Assembly: GCA_956465555.1 (NCBI GenBank)
Contig: OY101115.1
Location: forward strand, 2,542,001 to 2,606,000
Reading direction: 5' to 3'
Origin: Nitzschia sp. pyKryTriq1
Lineage: Eukaryota > Bacillariophyta > Bacillariophyceae > Bacillariales > Bacillariaceae
Length of the DNA: 64,000 nt
This document shows, piece after piece, positions 1-53,367 of this stretch (its first letter is position 1; every line of letters begins with the position of its first letter). A model generated the notes under the pieces. The model ran no database searches, had not been told where the DNA came from, and saw nothing but the letters and a program-made list of their open reading frames with translations. Made by a program: the position numbers and the translations under genes.

Positions 1-1036
1 CATTGGGAATCGTGGCACTCAGAAAGACGAATCGAACGCGATGGGGCAACAAAATGATAGACTCTTCCCATACTACACCACGTTCCGAATCACGCATGTA
101 GTGCACTGAAAGAGACAAAAAGGGAAGACGAACGAAGTGTGAGATAAAGTACGTACAGTACGAATACGTATATTGAAATCTGTTACGAGGACACGCCTCA
201 TGTTACGCACCTTCGTCGTAGATCACCCATGCCACTTCTCGCATGAGTTCCGACCCACGATACAACATGGATCTCAGAATTTCGGTCGTCATGACCAGAC
301 AGGTGGCATTTGGATTGATGGTGATATCGCCCGTCATCAAGCCCACGTCTCCAAACTCTTCCTGCAAATCTCGAAACTTTTGATTCGAAAGTGCCTTGAT
401 GGGAGAAGTATAGACGACACGTTGACCGTTGTTGAGAGATTTGGCAATGGCATACTCCGCCACTGTGGTTTTACCGGCTGAAGTATGTGCTGCCACTAGG
501 ACGGATTCTTCCTTTTCAATGTACTCGATCGCTTGCGCCTGAAAGGGATCCAACGTGTAAGCATACGTCTTGGCAGGCTTTTCGCTTCGTTTCGGCGTCG
601 GCAAGACGTGTCCTTCAGGTAAATTCTTCGGATATGCCGAATACGATCGAACGGACTTGTCATGCGAGGTTCCAGTAGCAATGTTTTGCTTGCTCGACGC
701 CTCTTCTACCTTGTCCTGCTTGTCTCCGCCATTGTTGTTCCTGCTGCTGCTTTCCACTGACTTTTTTGCAGTTTCTCTCAACCTGGAAGTTGTGGTCGCC
801 GACATGGCAGTAGTGTACAGTCGTTTCGCAGCTTCCTTGTCGTCGTCGTCGTCATCTTGAACATCCTTCATGGTTGTATCTTTGGATGACGAGTCTTCTC
901 CTGTAGTAGATTGAGCGGCAGCAGCAGCGGCAGCAGCAGCAGTGGAAGCACCACCATCATTCTGTTCTTTTTCTTGGCCACCCTCATCATCATCGCCGTC
1001 GATGGCGCCGAAGAGATCGTCTAGTTCATCGGCCAT
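1..1036 (-). CDS. MTR4: MTR4-type exosome RNA helicase, N-terminal part (runs off left edge)
   Basis: N-terminal part of a Ski2-like DExH RNA helicase, the nuclear exosome cofactor MTR4 (SKIV2L2). Exon 1 is 211-1036; exon 2 is 1-105 and continues outside the window; the intron 106-210 has a GTGCGT donor and a TTTCAG acceptor. I chose ATG 1036 ([13 protein letters not shown]) over the in-frame upstream ATG at 1084 because the acidic N-terminus is typical. Visible: acidic/polyalanine leader (to about residue 120), the Q-motif region FQAQAI, Walker A AHTSAGKT (about residue 180), [14 protein letters not shown] (motif Ia), [17 protein letters not shown], and a DEVH box split by the intron (YDE | VHYM). 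Exon 2 reaches motif III SATIPN. DEVH plus the [15 protein letters not shown] stretch separates MTR4/SKI2 from DEAD helicases; MTR4 is preferred over SKI2 by the short leader. It is divergent from the Arb2 gene. Confidence 0.9.
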
Positions 1037-1689
1037 TTTCGTAGAACAACAGCGATAGATCGTTGGAAATACAATGCCAGTCAAGTCTCACCTAAGACTG
1101 CAGAGGCTTGTGCGACACTACAGACTTTGTATGGACTTGCCATGGCCGAGGAGACGATAGATCCAAAAGGACGAAGCACAACAGCATCCATCATCCATCG
1201 AGATGAGATATGAGAGGCGCGAATGGCGGAGGGCGACTGATGTAATCGAACCAATCGGCTACGTATCGAACATCACCAACGTGGGACTGGGAAGACTGAC
1301 GGACGGTTGATCGGGTTGATCGGACGCGCGCCGATGCCCGATGTCAATGCGTTGCGAGTGCGAACACGATGCGAAGCCGCGAGATCCAGTTCCTGGAGGC
1401 CGTTGGAGCGCGAGCCCCAAAACTGCAGTCATCGGCTCGTATGCAACTGCAGATGATGCGCCTGCTCCATCACGACTACAATAAGTAACCATACAAAGTA
1501 GATGATAGAGGAACAACTCGCCACATCGCCCTGCATGCATGCTTTTGCGCCACGTCGATTGAACTTTACACATCATCATCATCGTCCGACTTTTTTTTAG
1601 AAGGAAAGACGACGACGCCCATCAAAAAACCGTAGACTATTTTAATCCACGTCGACCGAAGCAAGAAGAAGTGGCATTATTTTCACTAA
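1037..1689. other. Intergenic spacer, putative bidirectional promoter (MTR4 / Arb2-domain gene)
   Basis: 653 bp between two divergent start codons. It carries a minus-strand open frame (1259-1582, 107 codons) with no recognisable domain and biased composition, which I do not accept as a gene. A poly-T run at 1590-1598 and an AT-rich stretch lie just before the ATG at 1690. No other structure seen. Confidence 0.6.
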
Positions 1690-3666
1690 ATGCTTAGAGC
1701 CTTGACACAACAGCAGCACGGTGTGGTCACTACTTCAGAGGACCACAAACGCCAACAAGACTTTGAGAACGGTGGTTTCAGCAGTAGTGAAACAAGAATC
1801 GTTCCATCCCCCGACTGGGACAGCTTTGTCGAAATCGAGGAGAGCCCAGCAGCAGCTTCTAAAACCAAGAAAAAGAAGACTACTTTCTTCCGAATAATGG
1901 GGAATGCTGCGTCCTCCTCGTCCGCAGCCTCCTGTGCCTCGGGCTTTGCGAGCAGCAAAAGCGGAATGTTGACCACCCGAACCTCCCAAGAGGAGTTGGA
2001 GCGGTATGCCATGACGCAAGAGTTTCTGGAACAGGCCAAGTCGCCAGAAGAGGCCAGTCAGGTTTCTCGATTGAGCCACGCCGACTCGATGGAGCAACTG
2101 ATGGGTGACGACGAAGAATCACAGTCTCCGGAAGCCGGCATGAGCAGTACAAGTAGCGACAGCAAGCGCCGAAATTTTCGAGGCTTTCGTAAGAATCGAG
2201 TCTTTGACAAAATCGCCAACGCTTTTAATGCGGCTGGGAATTCTGTAGGAAAGAAGCTTAACGATGTCGAGGACTTTATGTTCCCACACACTCCACAAGT
2301 GGGAAGCTCTGCGATATCAGCACGATCATCCCAGCAACCTCCTACGTTGTCGGTCATCCCAAAAGTGAGGGGTGGTGTACTTTTGCGTGGTTGTATTGAC
2401 GACGAAGAACACCGACAAGTTGTCAAACAATCGATTGCCATCATGCAAGACCTCAAAGGAGAAGAGGGCCTTCGAGCGATGGGGCTCGAGTATCGATCCG
2501 TCTCGGTGGAAAATAACAATGAGAACACCACCACGGATGAGAACAACAAGCTAGCAAAGCCCAGCAGCAACATTACACAGTCGTCGGAAATACCCGGCCT
2601 CATGGACGCAGAGGAAGAAGAAGATGAAACGATGACAACAACCACGGAAACCACAGAAGAACCCGTCCCTTCATCAGCATCCGATGATGGTTCCCTGAAT
2701 TCTACTATGCTGCGTTTGTTTCACGCCGAATCAAACACTATGATTACCATGAAAAACCGAAAGGAGTTTATTGCGGATGGAGACATGTACGACCATGTCG
2801 CAAGATTGTGTCAAGAATATGCTCAAACGGTAATGATTGAAGAAGGTGGCTTGGAATGGGTGACGGTTTGTGAAGCTGGAAATAATGCAGAGCCCATCCG
2901 GGCTCTGGTGAGCACGGCTCTTTCAAAAGATGAGACAAACCTGGACAAAGTGCCGACATTACTCATCGCAACTGGGAAGGGAAAAGTAAGAGCTGGGATT
3001 TTTTCGCGGCAGCACCTAGTAATGTCAGGAATGGAATGCAGTACCGCTCTTCCTATTGTACGGGAAGCAAACAAGCGCAACATGAATGTTGTGATGCTCG
3101 ATCCCAACGTACACGGAGATCGTCTGGGCATGGTCACCTTTGAAAAATCCATGGCTCGACTTTTCCGACGATGGGAATCATCACCAGCGGACGAAGAAGA
3201 AGTATCATCCTCCCCCGATCAACCGCCACTTGCCAACAGAGATCTTTTCGTCCTGTCTCATTCTCAGTCGGGTGCACAATTTGCTCGATATCTGCTCGAA
3301 AAGTCGAACCACTACGTTCCACATATCAGGGCAGTCGCCTTTACCGATTCGACGCACAATATTCAATGGGCTCGCGAAAATAAGGATCTGCATCAACTGC
3401 TGCAGTCCGACAATTGCGTTTACTTCAAATGCTCCAAAGAAGAAGCTCCGAAAGAAGTCCTTTCACCGCTCGAGACGACGGGGGAGGATGTCGAAACGGA
3501 TCATTTCTGGGAACACCGGTTCGGGCGAATAAAAACAAAGTGTGCAGGAACGACTGAACATTCATTGACGAATTGGTTTGCTCGCACGCACATTTGGGAC
3601 CATTTCGACCATTTTTTGCACAACAAGGAGACGGGATCACCGCAAAATCCAATTCAGTCGCAATGA
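1690..3666 (+). CDS. Arb2 / FAM172-domain protein
   Basis: Single-exon 658-residue protein. The first ~350 residues are low-complexity and acidic (Ser/Glu/Asp/Thr-rich, e.g. EEEEDETMTTTTETTEE) and contain a basic patch (KRRNFRGFRKNRVFDK). The C-terminal ~270 residues match the Arb2 fold known from fission yeast Arb2, fungal Hda1 C-termini and metazoan FAM172A. Seen there: LLIATGKGKVRAGIFSRQHL, MNVVMLDPN, LFVLSHSQSGAQFARYLL (about residue 520), AVAFTDSTHNIQW and CAGTTEHSLTNW, which correspond in order to the FAM172 signature blocks. The alpha/beta-hydrolase-like serine region reads HSQSG rather than HSYGG. Known relatives act in Argonaute or heterochromatin/splicing contexts; the role here is inferred only. 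ATG 1710-region alternatives exist, but the first ATG is used because the frame is open from it. Divergent from MTR4. Confidence 0.75.
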   Translation: MLRALTQQQHGVVTTSEDHKRQQDFENGGFSSSETRIVPSPDWDSFVEIEESPAAASKTKKKKTTFFRIMGNAASSSSAASCASGFASSKSGMLTTRTSQEELERYAMTQEFLEQAKSPEEASQVSRLSHADSMEQLMGDDEESQSPEAGMSSTSSDSKRRNFRGFRKNRVFDKIANAFNAAGNSVGKKLNDVEDFMFPHTPQVGSSAISARSSQQPPTLSVIPKVRGGVLLRGCIDDEEHRQVVKQSIAIMQDLKGEEGLRAMGLEYRSVSVENNNENTTTDENNKLAKPSSNITQSSEIPGLMDAEEEEDETMTTTTETTEEPVPSSASDDGSLNSTMLRLFHAESNTMITMKNRKEFIADGDMYDHVARLCQEYAQTVMIEEGGLEWVTVCEAGNNAEPIRALVSTALSKDETNLDKVPTLLIATGKGKVRAGIFSRQHLVMSGMECSTALPIVREANKRNMNVVMLDPNVHGDRLGMVTFEKSMARLFRRWESSPADEEEVSSSPDQPPLANRDLFVLSHSQSGAQFARYLLEKSNHYVPHIRAVAFTDSTHNIQWARENKDLHQLLQSDNCVYFKCSKEEAPKEVLSPLETTGEDVETDHFWEHRFGRIKTKCAGTTEHSLTNWFARTHIWDHFDHFLHNKETGSPQNPIQSQ

Positions 3667-48770: not shown

Positions 48771-48872
48771 TTTATAATATGACCATCTCGTCGCCTCTTT
48801 CTATTTGTTCTTCCTCTTTTGTTTATAATATGACCATCTCCTCGCCTCTTTCTATTTGTTCTTCCTCTTTTG
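48771..48872. repeat. 51 bp tandem duplication at the 3' end of the MFS gene
   Basis: TTTATAATATGACCATCTCG... (48771-48821) is repeated at 48822-48872 with one substitution (CTCG/CTCC). On the minus strand the copy at 48822-48872 holds the last codons and stop (EEMVIL-stop) of the transporter; the other copy is a post-stop duplicate. Confidence 0.9.
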
Positions 48873-50373
48873 TCTTGAAGCTTCTCGAATTCGATCTATC
48901 TTTGGGAAGAAAACAGGCAAATGACGCCGCGATCAGCTGAAGAAATGCGGCGAAGAGGAACATTGCACCCGGGCCTAGGAAAGTGTCCGACGCGATGTGG
49001 TCAACATATCTCATGGCAAGAGGGCCAATTCCCGATGCCAAGGCAAGAATGGAATATAGTGCTCCTTGTATTCTCCCTTGTTCAGATTCGTCAACATTAT
49101 TGGCTTTAATTGCCGAAAAGGTTGGAAACGCCATTCCTGTGAAGGAAGCCAGGATGATGCCTGCATAGAGCGCTTCTTTGCCATTAGCGAGACCATACAA
49201 AGTGTTGGCAAACACAGCGGCCACAAAGCAATCGAGTACAATGAGTCGTTCACCAATGAAATCATTCAGAGGTTTCAGAATAACTCCTTGTGCCAGTACA
49301 GTGCCAAACCCATACAACAGGAGCATGACTGCCGTGTCCTTCACTGTAAAAGACAATTTTGAGTCCACGTAGTATAGAATGAGGACTTTGTCACCCGAGG
49401 TAACCATTCCATTGAAAAAGGCGAGCATAGAAAGCAGCCGAAAGAATCCATCTCGGTTGATGATGGATAGTTCACGAAAAGGTCGAAATACATTCCAAAT
49501 TATTAGATCAAACTTTGTCATGTTCGAATTCTCCAGCTCATGTTGCCTTCTTGCCTCCTCGGCCAAGGCAGGCTGCAAAGTTTCGGGAACAAAAAGGACA
49601 GCTACTGCTATTGCTGTCAAACCCAGGAAGCACGAAAAATAGACGGCATTCATGTATCCCAGAAAAACTGCAAAGGTAGGCCCGATGCAAACGCCAAACC
49701 AATAGGCTGCCATAAGGAGACCAACGGCGGGGGCTCGGAGCTGAGGAGGCATGACATCAGCCAGAGCCGCCAGAGCTAAGGCCGTCCAATTCACAAGTCC
49801 GTGCAATGATCGGACATAGTAAAAAATCCAAGGATTCGACTTGGGGCGCAGACAGACATAGAGAAATGCAAAGTTGCCAAGAATCGCTAAAACCGTGCCA
49901 AGAATGAACAAAACCCTTCGTCCGTGCCTGTCACTGATCGATCCAAACAACGGCCCAGATACCACAATGAGCATATTGCCAACCAGTTCGCTGAAGGCAT
50001 GAGCGTCTTGTGCATCGGACGATCCTAGAAGACACTCTTTTGGTTTGTCCGCGTAGTTTTCAAAAGTATTGCAATCGTCTCCGTCGTAGCCATAGTTCAG
50101 GACCGCAAATCTCTGCGTGCTCACTTTTGGTAGTATCGCAACAAAGGCCCCATATCCCAGCATTGTCAGGAATGCAACTGCCACAATCTGTGGTGGGCCA
50201 CTGGTCGCGCAAAACTGCCGGACGAATCCATGTTGTTGCTGAGAACAATCTGCGAGTGGAAACGTTGTTGTCGATGCGCCCGTTTCATTTTCTCGTTCCA
50301 ACGAAGCGTAACCTTGACGTCCCGAAACCAATGAATCACTCTGCTGCATCCTACCCGATATTCTAGATTGCAT
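48823..50373 (-). CDS. Major facilitator superfamily transporter (MFSD14/TetA-like)
   Basis: Single exon, 516 residues, about 12 hydrophobic segments. Residues 1-55 are a hydrophilic cytosolic tail. TM1 is IVAVAFLTMLGYGAFVAILP; the MFS A-motif after TM2 is GPLFGSISDRHGRRVLFILG; later segments include NWTALALAALADVMPPQLRA PAVGLLMAAYWFGVCIGPTF, the central loop ETLQPALAEEARRQHELENS, FFNGMVTSGDKVLILYYVD, and LYSILALASGIGPLAMRYVD. The loop between TM1 and TM2 is long and has two Cys (DCNTFE...KECLL), which could form an extracytoplasmic disulfide. It resembles the drug:H+ antiporter/MFSD14 (hippocampus abundant transcript) group; the substrate cannot be told from sequence. Start may be the Met eight codons in. 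Its stop lies inside a tandem duplication (48771-48872). Confidence 0.82.
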   Translation of the reverse strand: MQSRISGRMQQSDSLVSGRQGYASLERENETGASTTTFPLADCSQQQHGFVRQFCATSGPPQIVAVAFLTMLGYGAFVAILPKVSTQRFAVLNYGYDGDDCNTFENYADKPKECLLGSSDAQDAHAFSELVGNMLIVVSGPLFGSISDRHGRRVLFILGTVLAILGNFAFLYVCLRPKSNPWIFYYVRSLHGLVNWTALALAALADVMPPQLRAPAVGLLMAAYWFGVCIGPTFAVFLGYMNAVYFSCFLGLTAIAVAVLFVPETLQPALAEEARRQHELENSNMTKFDLIIWNVFRPFRELSIINRDGFFRLLSMLAFFNGMVTSGDKVLILYYVDSKLSFTVKDTAVMLLLYGFGTVLAQGVILKPLNDFIGERLIVLDCFVAAVFANTLYGLANGKEALYAGIILASFTGMAFPTFSAIKANNVDESEQGRIQGALYSILALASGIGPLAMRYVDHIASDTFLGPGAMFLFAAFLQLIAASFACFLPKDRSNSRSFKTKEEEQIERGEEMVIL

Positions 50374-50997: not shown

Positions 50998-51883
50998 ATG
51001 GCATCACGTTTCGCACCACAAATCGTCCGGGCGGCCAGTCGGCAATCTTCTTTGATAAGAATTTCTGCTTCCCGAAGTTTTGTATCAGCAACCTCGCCGA
51101 TGCTGGAAAAAAAGACAGTCAAGGTACCAACGATGGGAGACTCTATCACTGAGGTATGTCCATCATATTGGAGGGTGTGAGAATGGCTTTCTTCTTGTTC
51201 TCATTTTGAAATATTTCGTGTGTTCTCGCGAAAGGGTACGATCGTCGAATGGACGGCCCAGATTGGACAAAAGGTCAAAGACGGGGATGTTGTCGCCCTC
51301 GTCGAAACTGATAAGGTTACCGTGGATATCAAGGCCAACATGGATGGAGTGATTACGCAACAGTTTGGATCAGTGTAAGTGGAAATTTCGATGGTTTTGT
51401 TGTTCTTGAATGAATGGCCAGTCATTATTTGTGGGCCCACTGTTTTGTGTGTCAACCATAATTCAATCTTTATCTACTGCTCGTAGTGACGACACTGTGG
51501 AAGTGGGATCAGATCTTTATGAGCTGGATACCGAGGCCGAGGCGACAGTAGAAGCTGGTGAATCGGCTCCACTAGCGGCTGCTAGCAAACCAAAGGAATC
51601 GGCGCCAGCGCCACCCACACCGGCGGCCGCTGCCAAAGCTGCCTCTTCATCACCGCCAAAGCAAACGCAACAACAACAACAACATAGAGTTCCGTCCATC
51701 CATTTCCTAGGAAAAGAAGGATGGACACGCAAACTTGCCGGTGTTCCAGAACTTCCACCAGTGCCAACAAACTTTGGAAGACCTGCCTTCACTGAAGAAG
51801 AAATGGAAGCGTTGATGACGGGTGGGGCGAACCTGGTTCCTAATGTGAAGCAACATTCCAATGGTGCTGTCTTTGGATATTAA
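50998..51883 (+). CDS. E2o-type lipoyl domain joined to a KGD4/Ymr31-like tail (2-oxoglutarate dehydrogenase adaptor candidate)
   Basis: Exons 50998-51153, 51235-51374 and 51487-51883; introns of 81 and 112 bp (GTATGT...AAAG; GTAAGT...CGTAG); 230 residues. Residues 1-35 are a mitochondrial presequence (MASRFAPQIVRAASRQSSLI, RISASRSFVSA). Residues ~38-115 are a biotinyl/lipoyl domain of the dihydrolipoamide succinyltransferase type: GDSITEGTIVEWTAQIGQKV, DGDVVALVETDKVTVDIKAN, with the lipoyl Lys in ETDKV. Then an Ala/Pro/Ser/Gln linker. No peripheral-subunit-binding domain and no catalytic acyltransferase domain follow. The last ~60 residues (PSIHFLGKEGW; LPPVPTNFGRPAFTEEEMEA with LMTGGA) resemble both ends of KGD4/Ymr31/MRPS36, the small subunit that links E3 to the OGDH core. 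Function as an OGDH complex adaptor is inference. The ATG at 50968 adds ten residues. Confidence 0.7.
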
Positions 51884-52475: not shown

Positions 52476-53367
52476 ATGACGTATCATTGTTGTCCTGCGA
52501 AAATTGGTCCGTCGGTGTTAGATTGCGACATGGCCAATCTGGCAGCGGAAGGCAAGCGCGCCTTGGCTGCGGGAGCAAGATACCTTCATCTCGACGTGAT
52601 GGATGGTCATTTTGTGCCAAACATTTCTTTTGGACCATATGTTATCGAGTGCCTCAGGAGACATATTCCGGATGTTTTCTTTGATTGCCACATGATGACG
52701 GCCGAACCGGAGAACTGGGTCGAAAAAGTGGCCAAAGCTCAAGGAAGCAGTCCAGGGCTTTTGTGCTACACCTTTCATTACGAGGCGACGGAACCACGAG
52801 GCAAAACTCAAGAAGTCATCGATCTTATCAAGGAAAACAACATGAAGGTCGGATTGACCGTCAGCCCGGACACTCCTGTCGATGCTCTGCTGAAGTATGC
52901 AGATCAAATCGGTACGTGATTCTTTCTTTGGAGTGGATATAGCCGGTGGTCGGTCGGTAGCAAAATCCGCGAACTTCTCATCCCGTCGCCTGTATTTCGC
53001 TCTCGACCGTGCGTCTTCGTCGCCCCCCATACATCAAATTTTAGATTTGGCGTTGATTATGACTGTATATCCAGGGAAAGGAGGCCAATCTTTCATTGAA
53101 GCGATGATGGAAAAAGTAAAAACTCTTCGAGCAGCCTATCCAAATCTTGATATTGAAGTTGACGGTGGAGTCAAACCAAACACTGTCGACATGGCAGCAA
53201 AAGCTGGAGCCAATTTGATTGTTTCGGGTTCCGGCGTGTACAAAGCTGACGATATGGCTTTCAACATTTCGACAATGCAGCGAAGCATCGAACAATATGG
53301 ATGTGGGAAGAAGGACAAAGAGCTAAGTCCACTTGTATCCGATGGCGAAAGTACAAAATCGACATAA
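52476..53367 (+). CDS. RPE: Ribulose-phosphate 3-epimerase, cytosolic type
   Basis: Exons 52476-52911 and 53045-53367; intron 52912-53044 (133 bp, GTACGT...TTTTAG); 252 residues. Interconverts D-ribulose 5-phosphate and D-xylulose 5-phosphate in the pentose phosphate pathway, with a divalent metal. The TIM-barrel signatures are all present: IGPSVLDCDMANL, YLHLDVMDGHFVPNISFGP (metal His and catalytic Asp), FDCHMMTAEPENWV, YTFHYEA, VGLTVSPDTPVDAL, ALIMTVYPGKGGQSFIEAMM, IEVDGGVKPNTV (second catalytic Asp), GANLIVSGSGVYK. No presequence, so it is the cytosolic form rather than the plastid Calvin-cycle isoform (inference). Confidence 0.95.

Follow-up and report, generated by a model that had tools for sequence, protein, structure and literature searches.

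How E3 is held in the eukaryotic 2-oxoglutarate dehydrogenase complex (OGDHc) has, as far as the sources at hand tell, been solved only lately, in yeast, mammals and a fungus. For heart mitochondria, the relevant passages of PMC9974300 use crosslinks and modelling to place the C-terminal end of MRPS36 on E2o and its N-terminal end on E3, where it covers much of the site used by the E3-binding domain PSBD, and they propose MRPS36 as a substitute for the PSBD that eukaryotic E2o lacks. In Chaetomium, KGD4 has been named E3BPo for its E3-tethering role (PMC10203282), in an article that also discusses unloaded lipoyl domains (LDs) as anchors and holds one sentence on which KGD4 end meets which partner that can be read as the opposite of the assignment in PMC9974300. 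A passage in a review (PMC8146983) adds that co-transfection of MRPS36 gave no rise in OGDHc activity in HEK-293 lysates. We found no fusion of an LD with KGD4 in the portion of the literature available as open-access full text, and a full-text search returned no open-access paper that brings KGD4 together with a diatom; unpublished or merely annotated LD–KGD4 fusions may exist.

Here we describe a diatom gene that joins an E2o-type LD to a KGD4-like tail. It lies at positions 50998-51883 on the plus strand of the window, by which we mean the whole 64,000-nucleotide stretch of DNA that was analysed (C1:2542001-2606000 of a 40.65 Mb, 20-contig genome). Our splice model, built on the sequence, has three plus-strand exons that form one open frame of 230 residues (24.3 kDa), separated by introns of 81 and 112 bases that both follow the GT-AG rule. 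Exon 1 (50998..51153) encodes a presequence-like N-terminus and the start of the LD, exon 2 (51235..51374) the bulk of the LD, as located by sequence and Pfam, and exon 3 (51487..51883) the end of the LD, a linker rich in Pro, Ala, Ser and Gln, the KGD4-like tail and the stop codon. The domain order is a presequence-like start, a single complete LD with ETDKV, a low-complexity linker of about 55 residues and a tail of about 65. With 5 Arg, 9 Ser and zero Lys, Asp or Glu in residues 1-35, the N-terminus has a composition like that of a mitochondrial presequence. An alternative donor at 51362 also leaves the frame open (226 residues), a model that is less likely because it costs LD residues. As the LD end, the linker and the tail all lie in exon 3, the join between LD and tail is independent of splicing. 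Some 590 bases separate the stop codon from the next sizeable plus-strand open reading frame, which starts at 52476 and, judged by eye, resembles a ribulose-phosphate 3-epimerase; on the other side, a minus-strand frame (48823-50373) has, again by eye, the look of a major-facilitator transporter.

The first-pass annotation had claimed one complete LD with the ETDKV site, and this is what we see: the Pfam Biotin_lipoyl profile covers residues 39-111 with its positions 1-72 of 73 (E = 8.8e-17), and the lysine of ETDKV, K79 (codon 51313..51315, plus strand), is the residue at which lipoylation would be expected from the sequence. The LD profile, searched against the genome, also marks exon 2 (C1:2593223-2593360, E = 2.9e-9). 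As to type, the top NCBIfam model is sucB (E = 8.5e-22), which aligns its positions 2-121 of 404 with residues 40-162, so that the catalytic part of the model is not covered. When compared with seven LDs of the same genome, a set that includes only one of three LDs on C6 and leaves out several of the 17 LD places, the domain is nearest to the LD of the genome's own E2o (55.3% identity over 76 residues, score 213); the other six score at most 122, the value of the runner-up, an E2 on C14 (37.0% over 73 residues). Judged by these comparisons, the LD is of the E2o type and would be derived from, or sister to, that of E2o.

Neither an E3-binding nor an acyltransferase domain accompanies it, as had been noted at first reading. 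Profile searches place PSBD (PF02817) at five sites in the genome and the E2 catalytic domain (PF00198) at five, none of either in the window, and PSBD is also absent from the Pfam scan of the protein. A catalytic E2 domain further downstream, named beforehand as a finding on which the first reading would fall, is rejected for lack of any PF00198 match in the window and in view of the roughly 590 bases between the stop codon and the next sizeable plus-strand frame. A separate full-length E2o, which had been proposed as something to look for, is present on C1 (L017) with its LD intact and its catalytic domain matched; PSBD was not detected in it, and none of the five PF02817 places in the genome (a pair on C6 plus single ones on C14, on C1 at 1601 kb and on C7) falls in E2o. 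With its own E2o lacking a detected PSBD, the genome would be expected to encode another E3 recruiter, the role that passages of PMC9974300 and PMC10203282 propose for MRPS36/KGD4. Other components are also represented: an E1o-type C-terminal domain has two matches on C12, for which a DHTKD1-type enzyme is also possible, and there are nine E3-type matches, the best of them on C2 in two pieces of 392 and 151 bits, scored apart and not as one protein, and each below the 408.8-bit cut-off.

The genome holds further genes of the lipoyl and E2 kind. One of them, on the minus strand of C12 (L014, G000:C12:966000-969000), is another stand-alone lipoyl protein, of 219 residues in a two-exon model (2201-2125 and 1635-1053). 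It has a presequence-like start, an E2p-like LD (IETDKAS), a Pro/Ala linker of some length and, as its tail, GWGDFAKLNSPLLKTLSKQQNDYITKYGTTGQVPL, which matches no Pfam family; it may be a similar adaptor for the pyruvate dehydrogenase complex. Active E2s carry the motif DHRxxDG near the end of the catalytic domain, and an E2-like frame on C7 (L019, G000:C7:1282500-1285500, ORF 953-2062, plus strand), with an LD, a partial PSBD and a catalytic domain, reads ADRRVVDEA at that position, which makes it possibly a PDHX-like inactive E2. An LD-like frame on C1 (L015, G000:C1:4474500-4476500, ORF 517-1155, plus strand) has TTQDF in place of ETDKV and has apparently lost the lipoylation lysine; an LD-like match at G000:C3:3338026-3338247 has the same score and ORF length. 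An E2 gene on C6 (L021, G000:C6:916500-920500, ORF 521-3034, plus strand) comprises an 837-residue frame with three LD and two PSBD matches. The silicon transporter family is found in the same genome with eight matches, the best at E = 6.9e-266, in keeping with a diatom.

Among the 24736 Pfam families scanned, the sole one to match the tail is Kgd4-YMR31 (PF10937), over positions 93-116 of 116, that is, the last 24 positions of the profile. The score is 20.5 bits (E = 0.0016) with the last 50 residues as the query, 18.9 bits (E = 0.005) with the last 70 and 15.2 bits (E = 0.068) with the whole protein, each under the curated cut-off of 22 bits. The profile search with the last 70 residues, put forward earlier as a check, thus finds the family, at a score below its threshold; a tail devoid of detectable similarity to KGD4/MRPS36, which had been named as fatal to the first reading, is not what was observed. 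As yardsticks, a C-terminal piece of human MRPS36, 33 residues long, reaches 20.3 bits on PF10937, the full-length human protein 25.8 and the full-length yeast protein 104.9; by the two human values, the model performs weakly on remote members of the family. Eight controls made from the 50-residue tail (seven shuffles and one reversal) give no PF10937 match, although one shuffle matches an unrelated Pfam family at E = 0.066, and the reversed 70-residue tail has no PF10937 match either.

Pairwise scores locate the similarity at the C-terminal end. The C-terminal motif LPPVPTNFGRPAFTEEEMEALMTGGAN (51752..51832, plus strand; putatively E2o-binding), which coincides with the PF10937 match, has a score that not one of 5000 shuffles equals, be the reference yeast or human, and that of the whole tail is reached by 6 (yeast) and 5 (human) of 5000. 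The candidate N-terminal motif VPSIHFLGKEGW (51689..51724, plus strand; putatively E3-binding) is not significant alone, with 302 of 5000 shuffles as good as PSIHFLG against PMIKFVG of yeast and 2202 of 5000 as good against PLIRF of human; nor does MAFFT, given the yeast and human sequences, set it opposite its counterparts. From the F of P.I.F to the [VL]P of the C-terminal motif, the spacer measures 18 residues, whereas the human one has 54 and the yeast one 80 (pairwise alignments). Searched with the tail, NCBIfam gave one chance match only (E = 0.13) and solved structures gave two (E = 1.2 each); exon 3 folded without an alignment has a mean pLDDT of 54.6 and a pTM of 0.15, with two short helices, one of them over EEEMEALM. 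On this evidence, the C-terminal end of the tail is very probably homologous to KGD4, and the N-terminal end is, from its position only, likely to be the KGD4 N-terminal end. The earlier claim that the tail resembles both ends of KGD4 hence holds for the C-terminal end and falls short of significance for the N-terminal one taken by itself.

A different account of the tail is that its KGD4 likeness arose by chance or convergence, in which case the protein would be a stand-alone E2o-type lipoyl carrier or depot, for instance a substrate of lipoate relay, that tethers no E3. The score under the cut-off, the non-significant N-terminal motif and the short spacer all agree with this, as does the existence of another stand-alone LD protein with a Pfam-unmatched tail in the genome (L014). 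We nevertheless regard it as unlikely, given that no shuffle equals the C-terminal motif against either of two references and that the single match in all of Pfam is to an OGDHc family, which fits the type of the LD.

A separate KGD4 is likely to be missing from this genome. A search of the genome with the PF10937 profile returns nothing at E <= 1, the fusion gene included, and the same profile has no match in 14 control genomes, so that its silence everywhere is no proof of absence. Human MRPS36 finds two places in the genome, the better at E = 1.19. A degenerate pattern for the C-terminal motif matches the genomic DNA 22 times, against 13 times for the reversed pattern, and in the 22 contexts, which we read, only this gene is KGD4-like, in a test that a split or divergent motif would escape; nor was a second copy of the tail found in the genome. 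Searches for relatives covered, among eukaryotes, the window's own genome only. The tail pattern matches 51 stretches of viral contigs, none confirmed, and 242 of genome contigs, one confirmed, from Marinibactrum (L025, aligned over residues 14-34 of the 50-residue query), which by eye is an unrelated bacterial protein and was dropped.

Overall, the interpretation of the first-pass annotation is supported: the gene probably encodes a subunit of the diatom mitochondrial OGDHc that joins an E2o-type LD to a KGD4/MRPS36-type tether, for which the sequence suggests the role of a lipoylated adaptor. In favour of this reading, we count that the only Pfam match of the tail is to the E3-tethering family of OGDHc, with a score equal to that of the human MRPS36 fragment, that the LD is nearest to the genome's own E2o, that no PSBD was detected in this E2o, that no separate KGD4 was found and that an E1o-type domain and E3 candidates are present. 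Against it, we count the sub-cut-off score, the empty genome search with PF10937, the chance-level matches in NCBIfam and among solved structures, the non-significant N-terminal motif with its mismatch in the MAFFT alignment, the 18-residue spacer, the discordant end assignments in the published passages on KGD4 and the reported lack of an activity gain with MRPS36 in HEK-293.

If the map given in PMC9974300, with the C-terminal end on E2o and the N-terminal end on E3, is carried over, the C-terminal end of the diatom protein would be the core anchor. Its C-terminal motif would attach to the core of E2o, PSIHFLG would bind E3 in the usual place of PSBD, and the LD, lipoylated, would swing on its linker beside the recruited E3, serving the lipoyl arm to E3 and perhaps also to E1o and E2o. 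The short spacer would keep E3 nearer to the core than in human or yeast. The order of LD, linker, E3-binding motif and core anchor would repeat the one found in classical E2 and E3BP, the KGD4 ends standing in for PSBD and the inner domain, which would make the protein an OGDHc counterpart of PDHX built from unrelated parts.

The tether might also be genuine and recruit E3 while the LD is no working carrier of acyl groups or electrons but a passive spacer or anchor, or has a regulatory or redox-sensing part. E2o has an intact LD of its own, so turnover needs no extra arm, and the discussion of unloaded LDs as anchors in PMC10203282 points the same way; however, the LD is whole, with ETDKV retained, whereas another LD-like protein of this genome has apparently lost the lysine (L015), and we judge a passive LD distinctly unlikely. 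That the gene is a truncated E2o duplicate, a pseudogene or mis-modelled gene that ends in an open frame by chance, would suit an LD derived from or sister to that of E2o and is highly improbable in view of the three-exon open frame with GT-AG introns, the complete LD, a non-E2o tail with a family match of its own and the failure to find a remnant of the catalytic domain in the window.

The natural fusion of an E2o-type LD with a tail like KGD4 is an independent sign, of the gene-fusion kind, that KGD4 belongs with OGDHc. Should the protein be the lipoylated adaptor that we favour, lipoyl arms would outnumber E2o subunits in each complex, E3 would be both recruited and served by an arm on the tether itself, and the 18 residues between the two ends would make a compact tether suited to structural work. 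We also put forward, tentatively and with less than even confidence, that in diatoms, and perhaps in stramenopiles widely, OGDHc includes an E3-binding protein that bears an arm; the E3BP design of the pyruvate dehydrogenase complex would have arisen a second time, from unrelated parts.

With KGD4/Ymr31/MRPS36 (PF10937), the diatom protein has in common the C-terminal end, of the form [VL]P..[FY]...EEME...GGA, and a candidate P.I.F motif N-terminal of it, and its genome, too, has an E2o in which no PSBD is seen. Whereas the human and yeast members are not known to have an LD, the diatom protein places an LD and a linker first and has a much shorter spacer. It is similar to E2o (DLST/sucB) in the type of its LD, the ETDKV site and the Pro/Ala-rich linker, but differs in having no catalytic domain, and a full-length E2o (L017) exists separately. 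KGD4 joined to another protein, as here, is reported for the Chaetomium thermophilum record G0S3G5 in a passage of PMC10203282, where the partner is a putative holocytochrome c synthase; that record has since been divided into two, whereas the LD end and the tail of the diatom gene share one exon. In E3BP/PDHX as described for mammals and fungi (PMC10156792), an LD, a linker, an E3-binding and a core-binding element stand in one chain, as they would in the diatom protein, and acyltransferase activity is missing, a non-catalytic architecture to which we liken that of the diatom protein. Whereas PDHX relies on a PSBD together with a core-binding domain that is E2-like or reduced, the diatom protein matches neither PSBD nor the catalytic domain, and its LD is of the E2o type.
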